The notes under the pieces: model-generated | What the model saw: the letters and a program-made list of their open reading frames with translations, nothing else | Told to the model about the DNA's origin: nothing | The model's database searches: none | Shown here: piece by piece, positions 10,873-28,317 of the stretch | Layout of the letters: the number at the start of each line of letters is the position of its first letter | Numbering within the stretch: the stretch's first letter is position 1 | Made by a program: the position numbers and the translations under genes | Virus record (IMG/VR): IMGVR_UViG_3300047667_000696 | Coordinates: 1 to 31,853 of that record | Reading direction: 5' to 3' (one strand) | Length of the DNA stretch: 31,853 nucleotides | Origin: a virus

Positions 10873-10880
10873 GTATTTAT
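10873..10880 (-). promoter_or_regulatory. Late-type promoter box ATAAATAC for gp14-gp15-Nudix
   Basis: Read on the minus strand this is ATAAATAC, 15 bp before the gp14 start, with a GGAAA ribosome site between. It faces away from the plus-strand box at 10890, making a divergent late promoter pair. Confidence 0.65.
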
Positions 10881-10889
10881 CGCCCTAAG

Positions 10890-10897
10890 ATAAATAT
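10890..10897 (+). promoter_or_regulatory. Late-type promoter box ATAAATAT for gp13
   Basis: ATAAATAT 24 bp before the gp13 ATG, with a GAGGAG ribosome site in the leader. It is the plus-strand half of the divergent pair. Confidence 0.65.
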
Positions 10898-12536: not shown

Positions 12537-12839
12537 ATGCCCGACTCCACCTATAATATGCAACCGACAATGTCGATAGATGAAGATGGCGACACAGTAT
12601 GGCTGTTGAACGGCATGTATCACCGCGAAGATGGACCTGCTGTTGTATGGCAAAATGGCGACGAGGATTGGTATCTCCACGGCGATTATCACCGAACTAA
12701 CGGGCCAGCTATTGTATGGCACGATGGTACTGCTTCTTGGTATCTCCACGGCAGTCATTATACGTTTGATGGATGGCTTCATCAGAATAACGAATTGACT
12801 GACGAAGAAAAAGTCATGTTGAAGCTACAGTATGGATAA
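12537..12839 (+). CDS. HRxDGPA-repeat protein, copy 1 (100 aa)
   Basis: First of three tandem paralogues built of 23-residue units of pattern WYLHGxYHRxDGPAxxxxxGxxx. This copy has two full units (about residues 21-66) and ends with a conserved cap (YTFDGWLHQN then LTDEEKVMLKLQYG). The repeats resemble MORN-like/YwqK-type beta-hairpin repeats found in many phage and bacterial proteins of unknown role; no catalytic residues are evident. The N-terminus has a unique six-residue leader (MPDSTY) before the segment shared with copies 2 and 3. Overlaps copy 2 by 8 bp. Confidence 0.85.
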   Translation: MPDSTYNMQPTMSIDEDGDTVWLLNGMYHREDGPAVVWQNGDEDWYLHGDYHRTNGPAIVWHDGTASWYLHGSHYTFDGWLHQNNELTDEEKVMLKLQYG

Positions 12840-13335
12840 AGATATGCAACCGACAATGTCGATAGATGAAGATGGCGACACAGTATGGCTGTTGAACGGC
12901 ATGTATCACCGAACTGATGGCCCCGCTTTCGACCGTCCCTATGGTCGGAAAGAATGGTTCCACCACGGCGAAAGTCACCGAATTGATGGTCCTGCTGTTG
13001 AATTGGCAGATGGTACCAATATATGGTACTTATATGGAAAATGCCACCGAATTGATGGTCCTGCTGTCGAATATGCAGATGGCGAAGCATGGTGGTATTT
13101 GGAGGGTAAACGTCACCGCACCGATGGTCCAGCTATCGAATATGCAGATGGTCGCAAGGGTTGGTGGTTGCATAATACTCGTTTATCATTTGATGATTGG
13201 TTAAATCAGAACCCAGATATGACCAACGAAGAAAAAGTCATGTTGAAGCTACAGTATGGATAAAGATATGCAACCGACAATGTCGATAGATGAAGATGGC
13301 GACACAGTATGGCTGTTGAACGGCAAATATCACCG
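12556..13335 (+). repeat. Three direct 70-bp repeats marking a gene triplication
   Basis: Near-identical 70-bp segments at 12556-12625, 12842-12911 and 13266-13335 begin ATATGCAACCGACAATGTCG and encode the shared N-terminus MQPTMSIDEDGDTVWLLNG. Between copies 2 and 3 the identity extends leftward through the end of the preceding gene (about 12803-12901 against 13227-13325). This is the footprint of unequal crossing-over with units of about 286 and 424 bp. Confidence 0.93.
12832..13263 (+). CDS. HRxDGPA-repeat protein, copy 2 (143 aa)
   Basis: Second tandem paralogue, with four 23-residue units (WLLNGMYHRTDGPA, WFHHGESHRIDGPA, WYLYGKCHRIDGPA, WYLEGKRHRTDGPA) and the cap ending EEKVMLKLQYG. 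The ATG lies inside the last codons of copy 1 (8-bp overlap), so it has no intergenic ribosome site of its own and is probably translationally coupled. An internal ATG at 12844 would give the same conserved N-terminus MQPTMS. Function unknown. Unit number differs from copies 1 (two) and 3 (three). Confidence 0.85.
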   Translation: MDKDMQPTMSIDEDGDTVWLLNGMYHRTDGPAFDRPYGRKEWFHHGESHRIDGPAVELADGTNIWYLYGKCHRIDGPAVEYADGEAWWYLEGKRHRTDGPAIEYADGRKGWWLHNTRLSFDDWLNQNPDMTNEEKVMLKLQYG

Positions 13336-13618
13336 TGAAGATGGTCCGGCAATTGAATCGGCAAATGGTCATAAGTCTTGGTACTTATATGGAGACTGCC
13401 ACCGAATTGATGGTCCCGCTATCGAATATGCAGATGGTGACGCATGGTGGTATTCGGAGGGCAAACTGCACCGCGCCGATGGACCTGCTGTTGAATATGC
13501 AGATGGGCGCAAGGGTTGGTGGTTGCATAGTACTCATCTATCATTTAACGAATGGCTTGATCAAAATAAAACACTAACTGACGAAGAAAAAGTCATGTTC
13601 AAGCTACAATATGGTTGA
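13256..13618 (+). CDS. HRxDGPA-repeat protein, copy 3 (120 aa)
   Basis: Third tandem paralogue, with three 23-residue units (WLLNGKYHREDGPA, WYLYGDCHRIDGPA, WYSEGKLHRADGPA) and the cap LSFNEWLDQN...EEKVMFKLQYG. It overlaps copy 2 by 8 bp in the same way copy 2 overlaps copy 1. Its terminal codons run into promoter P3, whose -35 starts at 13615. Function unknown; a repeat-built binding surface is the only structural inference offered. Confidence 0.85.
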   Translation: MDKDMQPTMSIDEDGDTVWLLNGKYHREDGPAIESANGHKSWYLYGDCHRIDGPAIEYADGDAWWYSEGKLHRADGPAVEYADGRKGWWLHSTHLSFNEWLDQNKTLTDEEKVMFKLQYG

Positions 13619-25303: not shown

Positions 25304-27166
25304 ATGACATATTCAGTAGACATCATCGCGCAGCAACTTTTCAAAACTATTAAGGGGTTCAATCACGCCATCGTATTATTCACAGACGACGGACAAAAGA
25401 CCACTGATCCTAACGATGCGCGTCGTTTTTATGCAAAAGATATCCAAATGATGGTTAACTTTGTTGTTGACGAAACAACTAATGAAATTGTGGTCAATCT
25501 TAGCAAAGACTCTGATGTTGCCGAACTTCAACCAATGTTATCTTCTATCCGCAACTTAGCCAACCGTTATATTATTGAATATACAGTAAAGACTTTTGGC
25601 AAATCAATCTCCCCAAAAGATTTCGCGTACCAAGCTAAAAATACAATTGAAGAAACAATGGCGTCTCGTCGAAATCAAACAGAGGCCACAGTCACGTCTG
25701 AAATAAGTATCCCTGGGTTTGGTAGTTGGAATGAACAATCCTTGCAAAAGAATATAATTTCTCGCGCAACAAATATTGCAAAAGCAGCTCAAGATGGTAA
25801 CTTCAGAAATGTTGCACATCACGCAAAGATATTATTAGCGACTTCAAAGGCATATAATGCGCACATGGATAGCAATGGCGTTAACGAAAGCGACGCAAAT
25901 TCCGAGATAAGTATCCCTGGGTTTGGTAGTTGGAATGAACAATCCTTGCAAAAGAATATAATTTCTCGCGCAACAAATATTGCAATAGCAGCTCAGGATG
26001 GCAATTTCAGAAATGTTGAGCATCACGCAAAGATATTATTAGCGACTTCAAAGGCATATAATGCGCACATGGATAGCAACGAAGAAATCAATGAACTTGA
26101 CTGCTGGGATGGTTATAAAAAGCAAGGTACTAAAAAAGGTACTGGCAAGAACAAAGACAAGCGTGTAAACAATTGTGTGCCAGAAGACGTAAACGAAGGT
26201 TTTAGTGGATGGGCAGGATCAGCCCGTAAGAGTGTAAACGAATTAGGTGACGCCCGTATCATTGTCAAGCACAAGCGTAGTGTAGACGAAGAAAAGCGTG
26301 GTGCACGTACACGTCAGATTGAAAGCATCTTTATTGAGAACTCAGACGGCGAACGGTTCAAGTTTCCTAGCACAAATGTCACCGCAGCGAAAGCTATGGC
26401 ACGTCACGTGAAAGAGGGCGGTGTACCGTTTGACGACTTCGGCCAACATATTTACGGTATCATGGAAGAACTTAATCAACTCAAGACATTCCACCGCAAG
26501 AACAAGCGCAACGACTTCTTTGAAGACGCGGCGATCAGCGAAGAAATTGGCACACATATTGGTAACCTCCGCTCCAGTCTAAAATCAATGTCTGGTAAAA
26601 ATGGCTATAACAAGCAGTTTGAAAGCTTCAGCAAAGAGAGTGAAAACGTCTCACAAGAACGCATCGATGAGCTAAAGGACGAGACAACTACGACATATTT
26701 TGACGAAAGCATTGCAGCCGCTCTGCCTTATGTAGCTCGTATCATTGAAACATTGCGCGGACGCCAGACAAACGAATCTGCCGTAGTAGAATTTGCCCGT
26801 CAAGTCATGGGTAGCGAGACATTTTCTCTCAGCGAGGCATGCGACGACGACGACTTAGATTCCCCCGAACTACAAAACTACAAGGACCAGCTTGATGAGA
26901 TCAGCGCATGGTCAACATATTTGGCACCACGTATGCAAAATGAAGAGCTTGCAGGCAAAATGACACATATGGCAGAGAACATTGGTACGGTTGGCGCAGG
27001 CCATGCCAGAATGGCTATGTCAGCAATCAACGTTATCCGTCAACATGGACAGGTAGCTGAAGCAAGTTGCATTGCTGACGAAAAAAACGACGTAGGAGCG
27101 GCTGAAAACGCCAAAATCAACGAAACTTTCGATAAATATACAGTACGCAAAATATTCGGTGTATAA
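25304..27166 (+). CDS. Large virion structural protein with internal duplication
   Basis: 620 residues, function not assigned. An N-terminal about 130-residue domain is followed by two almost identical 68-residue copies (SEISIPGFGSWNEQSLQKNI ...; DNA 25703-25875 and 25907-26079). A CWDGYKKQGTKKGTGKNKDK segment ending VNNCVPE (about 266-290) follows, a Cys-Trp...Cys motif common in marine myovirus virion proteins. The rest is helical with a DDDDLDSPELQNYK stretch. Late promoter and position after the terminase support a late structural role, perhaps packaged in the capsid. Confidence 0.75.
   Translation: MTYSVDIIAQQLFKTIKGFNHAIVLFTDDGQKTTDPNDARRFYAKDIQMMVNFVVDETTNEIVVNLSKDSDVAELQPMLSSIRNLANRYIIEYTVKTFGKSISPKDFAYQAKNTIEETMASRRNQTEATVTSEISIPGFGSWNEQSLQKNIISRATNIAKAAQDGNFRNVAHHAKILLATSKAYNAHMDSNGVNESDANSEISIPGFGSWNEQSLQKNIISRATNIAIAAQDGNFRNVEHHAKILLATSKAYNAHMDSNEEINELDCWDGYKKQGTKKGTGKNKDKRVNNCVPEDVNEGFSGWAGSARKSVNELGDARIIVKHKRSVDEEKRGARTRQIESIFIENSDGERFKFPSTNVTAAKAMARHVKEGGVPFDDFGQHIYGIMEELNQLKTFHRKNKRNDFFEDAAISEEIGTHIGNLRSSLKSMSGKNGYNKQFESFSKESENVSQERIDELKDETTTTYFDESIAAALPYVARIIETLRGRQTNESAVVEFARQVMGSETFSLSEACDDDDLDSPELQNYKDQLDEISAWSTYLAPRMQNEELAGKMTHMAENIGTVGAGHARMAMSAINVIRQHGQVAEASCIADEKNDVGAAENAKINETFDKYTVRKIFGV
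25703..26079 (+). repeat. 173-bp direct duplication within one gene
   Basis: 25703-25875 and 25907-26079 are 204 bp (68 codons) apart and differ at only about six positions. The frame is preserved. This is a recent in-frame duplication of one helical module. Confidence 0.95.
27132..27139 (+). promoter_or_regulatory. Possible late-type box ATAAATAT upstream of gp32
   Basis: ATAAATAT inside the last codons of the structural gene, about 190 bp before gp32. It could add late expression of gp32, but distance and coding context make it uncertain. Confidence 0.3.
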
Positions 27167-27201: not shown

Positions 27202-27230
27202 TTGACCGACCCCGAATAATAGTGTATTAT
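27202..27230 (+). promoter_or_regulatory. Sigma70-type promoter for gp32
   Basis: TTGACC-N17-TATTAT, predicting a transcript start near 27237 and a leader of about 95 nt. It lacks the AAGTAAGC leader of the P1-P5 class. Confidence 0.7.
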
Positions 27231-27231
27231 C

Positions 27232-27298
27232 AACGTATTACAAGAGATGATTTGTAATACGTTTGTTAAAATAAACAAACTAGGACCGGACTATCCGG
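27232..27298 (+). promoter_or_regulatory. Multi-hairpin leader of gp32 (possible autoregulatory RNA)
   Basis: Three inverted repeats in a row: a perfect 12-bp pair AACGTATTACAA / TTGTAATACGTT (27232-27243 and 27252-27263, 8-nt loop); GTTTGTT / AACAAAC (27261-27267 and 27274-27280, loop AAAATA); and CCGGA / TCCGG (27286-27290 and 27294-27298, loop CTA). The first two share three bases, so they are mutually exclusive at their tips. The predicted transcript start falls in the first arm, which may instead make that element a DNA operator. Confidence 0.6.
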
Positions 27299-27330
27299 AA
27301 ACATTATGGCTATTATAGGAGACCATCATT

Positions 27331-28317
27331 ATGGCAACATTAGCAGAAATTCGCGCGAAACTACAAGCTCAAGAAAACACCCAAAAAGGTAAAGGTGGCG
27401 GGTTCGACAACGCAATTTACCCACATTGGAACACCCCCGAAAATGAAACAAGTACTATTCGTTACCTCGCCGATGGCGACGATACGAATGACTTCTTCTG
27501 GCGTGAACGCCAGATGATTAACATCACCTTCCCTGGCATTAAAGGCCAAGACGAAGGCAAGGCAGTAACTGTTAAGGTACCATGCATCGAAATGTGGGAC
27601 GGTCAGAAATGCCCAATCCACCAAGAAATCCGTCCTTGGTTCAAAGACCCAAGCATGGAAGACATGGCCCGCAAATACTGGAAGAAGAAAAGCTACCTAT
27701 ACCAAGGTTTGGTAGTCACGTCTGGCTTCACAGAAGAAGAGACTCCGGAGAATCCAATCCGCCGTTTCATCAACTCACCACAAATTCACAACATTATCAA
27801 AGCGGCACTAATGGACCCTGACTTCGGGGAACACATGCCAACTGATTATGACGAAGGTGTAGACTTCCGTGTAGCCAAGACAAAGAAAGGTCAGTACGCT
27901 GACTATACCACTTCAAACTGGGCACGTAAGTCACGTAGCTTGGACCAAGCGGAACGTGATGCGATTGCTGAACATGGGTTGTTTGACCTTAACGATTTTA
28001 TGCCAAAGAAGCCTTCCGAGGCAGACTTGGACATTATGTTCCAAATGTTCGAAGCTAGTGTTGACGGTGAACTTTATGATCCAGAACGTTTTGCGGATCA
28101 TTATCGTCCTTGGGGCATGGACGCACCAAGCGGTGGCTCAAGCAACCGTGTAGTCACACCACCAACCACCCCAGCGGTAGTAAGTTCTACCACAGCGGAT
28201 GAAGACACGGCTGAGACCAAAAAAGCGGTCCCAGAAAAGCCAGTGACACCAGCCAAGACAGGTGGCGGCGACGCAGCAGATATTCTTGCCGCAATCCGTG
28301 CTCGTAAAGAGGCTTAA
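27331..28317 (+). CDS. 32: Single-stranded DNA-binding protein (T4 gp32-like)
   Basis: 328 residues. Binds ssDNA cooperatively during replication and recombination. The basic N-terminus (LAEIRAKLQAQENTQKGKGG) corresponds to the cooperativity domain. The OB-fold core contains IYPHWNTPENETSTIRYLAD and a C-x8-C-x2-H cluster (about C85, C94, H97) in the place of the T4 zinc site. A Thr/Pro-rich linker leads to the C-terminus, where the usual acidic tail is weak and the protein ends DILAAIRARKEA. TAGGAGACC is the ribosome site. Length matches T4 gp32 (301 aa). Confidence 0.93.
   Translation: MATLAEIRAKLQAQENTQKGKGGGFDNAIYPHWNTPENETSTIRYLADGDDTNDFFWRERQMINITFPGIKGQDEGKAVTVKVPCIEMWDGQKCPIHQEIRPWFKDPSMEDMARKYWKKKSYLYQGLVVTSGFTEEETPENPIRRFINSPQIHNIIKAALMDPDFGEHMPTDYDEGVDFRVAKTKKGQYADYTTSNWARKSRSLDQAERDAIAEHGLFDLNDFMPKKPSEADLDIMFQMFEASVDGELYDPERFADHYRPWGMDAPSGGSSNRVVTPPTTPAVVSSTTADEDTAETKKAVPEKPVTPAKTGGGDAADILAAIRARKEA

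Follow-up and report, generated by a model that had tools for sequence, protein, structure and literature searches.

Our comparative analysis suggests that the leader of the gp32 gene (positions 27202–27330) is probably a cis-acting RNA element that serves as a translational operator, most likely an autogenous one bound by gp32 itself. The window, i.e., the whole 31,853-nucleotide stretch of DNA that was analysed, is a 31.9-kb IMG/VR virus record from a myovirus whose virion genes resemble those of T4; genes for portal, major head protein, sheath, tube and terminase were identified. A broad uncultured phage family has a gp32-specific leader that combines covariation-supported RNA structure with repeats unlike those of T4, and its dozens of natural variants make it possible to ask by what means an ssDNA-binding protein that is indifferent to sequence finds its own mRNA. 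A review of post-transcriptional control in T4 pointed out that neither the pseudoknot nor the AU-rich tract of gene 32 is present in RB49, and that self-control of gp32 across diverse relatives of T4 had still to be studied (PMC3014915).

The gp32 gene (27331–28317, + strand) encodes an ssDNA-binding protein of 328 aa, identified by matches to phrog_1192 (E 2e-65) and to Pfam PF08804, the ssDNA-binding core domain, which covers residues 41–226 and scores 28.1 bits against a cut-off of 26.8. The next gene after gp32 encodes a UvsX-type recombinase. A PDB sequence search with gp32 returned a designed helix bundle as the sole match, which was judged to be due to chance and was discarded. On the + strand, an early promoter with a -35 box TTGACC (27202–27207) and a -10 box TATTAT (27225–27230) was read directly; the 17-nt spacer between the boxes places +1 at about 27237. 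A sigma70-like promoter with 9 or more matches in 12 positions is present in 91 of the 92 distinct leaders described below, where the thresholds for promoter score and for unit pattern were our own and were applied to one leader set. Scanning of five records for the early promoter plus CAA gave no sign that this combination is a general promoter context.

Relatives were collected by two gp32 searches, giving 159 loci with many duplicates and 92 distinct leaders, which were sorted into groups by leader type; all of the sequences are metagenomic, and kinship among them inflates the counts. Clade A consists of the window and L001–L024, with gp32 proteins that are 63–92% identical, and its inverted repeat follows the -10 box without an intervening base. 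Clade B leaders (e.g., L028–L055 and L096–L135) open with GGCUAACAAAGGCAAA, which is unstructured, and then have between one and three small hairpins; in the remaining leader types (e.g., L127–L169) the repeat again begins near -5.

The window contains a perfect 12-bp inverted repeat (27232–27243/27252–27263) with an 8-nt loop, starting just past the sigma70-like -10 box. The first-pass annotation of this DNA had described this repeat together with a 7-bp repeat overlapping it by three bases, and both were recovered at exactly those coordinates. In the register shared by the family, hairpin 1 is a conserved 11-bp stem (27231–27265, + strand; arms 27231–27241 and 27254–27265), with a bulged G at 27261 and C27234·T27262 unpaired in the window, where the stem also grows inward by two A-U pairs to give the 12-bp repeat. 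Compensatory changes in relatives, on which the earlier RNA reading had been made to depend, are strongly present. When 15 distinct clade A leaders were aligned with gap-free arms, the -10 box and a conserved G-CUUG serving as anchors, pairing was found in 96.4% of 165 cells, and both sides had changed in 7 of the 11 pairs. Cells with both sides changed numbered 22, compared to 6.1 in shuffled sequences, and 0/500 shuffles matched the observed value. Sliding the partner arm reduced pairing to 30–41%, versus 96% in the true register. The same result was obtained with a structure-blind MAFFT alignment, and RNAalifold recovered the stem unaided. Parsimony on the gp32 tree indicated that pair -2 changed at least 6 times and pair -1 at least 5 times. 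Each clade A record gave a single match to a covariance model of the element, in every case at gp32, except that G003 had a second, weak one (E 0.235). None of the curated Rfam covariance models matched the leader at gathering score, and two sub-threshold miRNA matches were attributed to chance.

The position of the repeat, which starts directly 3' of the -10 box and includes +1, raises the question of whether it is instead a DNA operator bound by a repressor across the transcription start. This competing explanation had been offered because the predicted start falls inside the first repeat, and that part stands, since +1 at about 27237 lies within the 5' arm of hairpin 1; the outer pairs 5' of +1 are also retained. 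An operator in DNA would be expected to have fixed half-sites and spacing, but both the arm sequence and the loop length (2–13 nt across clade A) vary. Non-Watson-Crick cells in hairpin 1 are G·U in 11 cases and A·C in 1, and stems picked by Watson-Crick pairs only gave 17 G·U against 0 A·C, counts that are partly redundant since the sequences are related; pure Watson-Crick symmetry is therefore not what was retained. The single copy per genome likewise disfavours a DNA operator. Clade B carries a different 6-bp hairpin, situated entirely downstream of +1, which covaries just as well (13 leaders, 100% paired, 0/500 shuffles; G·U 9 versus A·C 0, again partly redundant), with stems that were chosen for full pairing but always lie at nearly the same position. 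Because mismatches are G·U and not A·C, the loop varies in length and the element occurs essentially once per clade A record, RNA pairing is favoured over DNA symmetry and a repressor-bound DNA operator is very unlikely. Judged by this substitution pattern, hairpin 1 is an RNA structure conserved at the RNA level.

The other two hairpins differ in their conservation. Hairpin 2, GTTTGTT/AACAAAC (27261–27280, + strand; 27261–27267/27274–27280), is the 7-bp repeat, and the three bases that it shares with the 12-bp repeat are part of hairpin 1's conserved outer helix. The overlap had been proposed to allow a switch, but hairpin 2 is lineage-specific, being found among the relatives only in the window and in its nearest relative, L001, and we dropped it as a switch partner. 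Hairpin 3, CCGGA/TCCGG (27286–27298, + strand; arms 27286–27290 and 27294–27298), was seen directly as annotated, as was TAGGAG at 27316–27321. Of the 15 clade A leaders in the alignment, 13 have the CCGG/CCGG stem of hairpin 3, the exceptions being L009 and L023, and L003 retains it as CCGA/TCGG. Pairing between the hairpin 3 loop and the CUA(A/U)UAUAGG tract that includes the Shine-Dalgarno looked suggestive in L004, L018, L012 and L014, but was not significant (permutation p 0.09).

Folding of the region as a whole was compared with shuffled sequences. For 27202–27350, 4 of 200 dinucleotide shuffles folded as well (z -2.84), and the 100-nt segment that runs from the -10 box up to the ATG had a z-score of -4.3 in the window, with a mean of -2.07 over 91 leaders. 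The stretch up to TAGGAG, previously described as unstructured, is mostly unpaired 3' of the CCGG hairpin in the minimum free energy model, but 27310–27316 pairs there with 27216–27222, a pairing that requires bases 5' of the early start.

The early start has a further consequence for hairpin 1, as the outer 6 bp lie upstream of it and an early transcript has the inner stem only. In the 5' arm, the six outermost bases covary although they precede the early +1, so the transcript that matters must start further 5'. A candidate T4-type late promoter, GATAAATA, is located at 27131–27138 (+ strand), about 190 nt 5' of gp32, where in the window it is also coding sequence (Asp-Lys-Tyr); neither this motif nor the CUAAYA/Shine-Dalgarno motif described below had been reported in the first-pass annotation. 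Transcription from it would be expected to start at about 27145–27150 and would span the whole leader, and a full-length late transcript is likely. The window does not exceed chance in its total of ATAAATA sites (8, with 6.8 expected), so that their placement alone is informative: 6 of the 8 sit 16–41 nt before virion gene starts in the correct orientation, and GATAAATA contains another. Two ATAAATA sites, at 10874–10896, lie on opposite strands, 9 nt apart and facing outward before two divergent virion genes, and are likely to be a divergent late promoter pair. The exact T4 form, TATAAATA, is absent from the window. Among relatives, the late-promoter motif precedes gp32 in 33 of 89 leaders (12 expected), and in some (for example L141 and L157) it is inside the -35/-10 spacer. 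In T4-like cyanophages, NATAAATA is the late promoter, and overlapping sigma70-type (early) and NATAAATA-type (late) promoters precede one and the same gene in middle genes of RB49, S-PM2 and Syn9 (PMC2984593). The arrangement found here is similar, but differs in that the start used would decide whether the transcript has the outer helix of hairpin 1.

The constant part of the leaders is the motif at the Shine-Dalgarno. In the window, GGCTATTATAGGAG (27308–27321, + strand) consists of one clear CUAWYA unit adjoining the Shine-Dalgarno TAGGAG, and this is the only exact match in the 31.9 kb. Across 91 leaders, CTAAYA occurs 186 times versus 24 expected, with at least 2 units in 62 leaders, and when the variant CAAAYA is included, successive units are 10 nt apart in 60 of the 122 intervals that are no longer than 40 nt. 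In 67 of 74 leaders the last unit is found 7 nt 5' of the Shine-Dalgarno AGGA, and CTAWYAnAGG, i.e., a unit adjoining the Shine-Dalgarno, is present in 76 of 91. We compared matches to GGCTAAYANAGG in 14 large related records (~1.8 Mb) with the gp32 locus coordinates from both gp32 searches, and all 13 matches were within ~90 nt 5' of a gp32 start. T4 gp32 occludes 7 nt (PMC10484735), so that one gp32 might plausibly bind per CUAAYA unit. The gp32 leader of L118 (2920–3000) contains seven CTAACA/CTAATA units without a clear hairpin, and may represent the element reduced to its repeats. CUAAYA units were absent from the gp32 leaders of the named distant relatives Phosso, PA5oct-like, Atu_ph07, XbC2 and RaK2, which have predicted hairpins. 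Agrobacterium phage Atu_ph07 (L180, 830–900) has a hairpin and some four repeats resembling CACAATTTA ahead of the Shine-Dalgarno, the same layout with a different repeat unit.

Because the hairpin and the motif are both gp32-specific, gp32 is the most economical ligand. The same specificity bears on two other readings of the tract. The gp32 protein is produced in large amounts, and the hairpin, which in clade A lies very close to the expected 5' end or right at it, could stabilise the mRNA while the CUAAYA tract adjoining the Shine-Dalgarno enhances translation, with no gp32 feedback. We consider this rather unlikely, given that such elements would be expected on other abundant mRNAs, but the motif and the model are found essentially at gp32 only, and enhancement does not need repeated units 5' of the Shine-Dalgarno. 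It is highly improbable that a different translational repressor, for example a RegA-like protein, binds the tract. RB69 RegA selects UAA-rich RNA, with SELEX winners AAUAAUAAUAAnA (PMC3014915), but RegA targets many mRNAs and the motif here is confined to gp32; no RegA family match was seen in 12 incomplete records, which says little, as the control was silent too.

Autogenous control by gp32 has a well-known precedent. In T4 and RB69, gp32 shuts off its own message: it binds a pseudoknot in the 5' part and spreads from there across repeats of the UUAAA type and the ribosome-binding site (PMC535899), the layout being a pseudoknot plus UUAAA repeats across the ribosome-binding site (PMC535899, PMC3014915). 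The first-pass annotation had called the present leader analogous in layout to that of T4 with a different sequence and structure, and our results agree. As in the gene 32 operators of T4, T2 and RB69, it belongs to a gp32-family gene, places structured RNA 5' of a less structured, repeat-bearing stretch over the ribosome-binding site, and diverges in sequence while the structure stays. In contrast to those operators, it has one or more hairpins without a detectable H-type pseudoknot: a scan for the T4-type pseudoknot gave nothing consistent in 15 clade A leaders, and the best candidate in the window was equalled by 13 of 100 shuffles. The adjacent tract is present, but when it was tested for UUAAA/UAAA repeats, the unit proved to be CUAAYA, spaced ~10 nt apart. 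The proteins differ as well. KRKST, the N-terminal LAST motif of T4 gp32, is implicated in nucleic-acid binding and gp32–gp32 contacts (PMC535899), and was not found in the N-terminus of the window gp32 (MATLAEIRAKLQ; MATLAEIRAKLQAQE). As no T4-type pseudoknot was found, we do not file the leader as a member of the T4 operators, and by this comparison it would be T4-like in its working at most. The T4/RB69 gene 43 operator, bound by DNA polymerase, is also a hairpin before the start of a replication gene, and autogenous control is likewise predicted here; however, its loop nucleotides are conserved (PMC3014915), whereas here the loop varies freely and the constant part is the motif at the Shine-Dalgarno.

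Under the preferred reading, an RNA operator bound by gp32, gp32 mRNA would be made early from the sigma70 promoter and later from the upstream late promoter. The 5' part of this mRNA would fold into the hairpin, usually together with the CCGG hairpin, leaving 3' of them a single-stranded tract in which the CUAAYA unit, often repeated every ~10 nt, would end next to the Shine-Dalgarno. In excess of available ssDNA, gp32 would then bind hairpin and tract and spread over the ribosome-binding site, so that initiation would be blocked. Of these steps, we infer the late transcript, the binding of gp32, its cooperativity and the repression by analogy with T4/RB69. A more detailed version, which is conceivable but doubtful, holds that this is a stage-dependent operator without a pseudoknot, in which promoter choice sets the strength of self-repression. 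Early transcripts, beginning inside the 5' arm, would carry a weakened hairpin and late transcripts from GATAAATA the full stem, while gp32 filaments would be phased by the 10-nt CUAAYA unit, which ends on the Shine-Dalgarno.

Several sequence duplications were also observed in the window. Two copies of CATTATGGC lie within 27302–27347, one at the gp32 start codon and the other 26 nt 5' of it, and the 5' copy holds an out-of-frame ATG without an evident Shine-Dalgarno. The virion ORF 5' of gp32 (25304–27166) contains a near-exact internal duplication (SEISIPGFGSWNEQSLQKNIISRATNIA...). Three consecutive ORFs at 12537–13618 (12537–12839, 12832–13263 and 13256–13618) are repeat-bearing paralogues with motifs like DGDTVWLLNGxYHRxDGPA.
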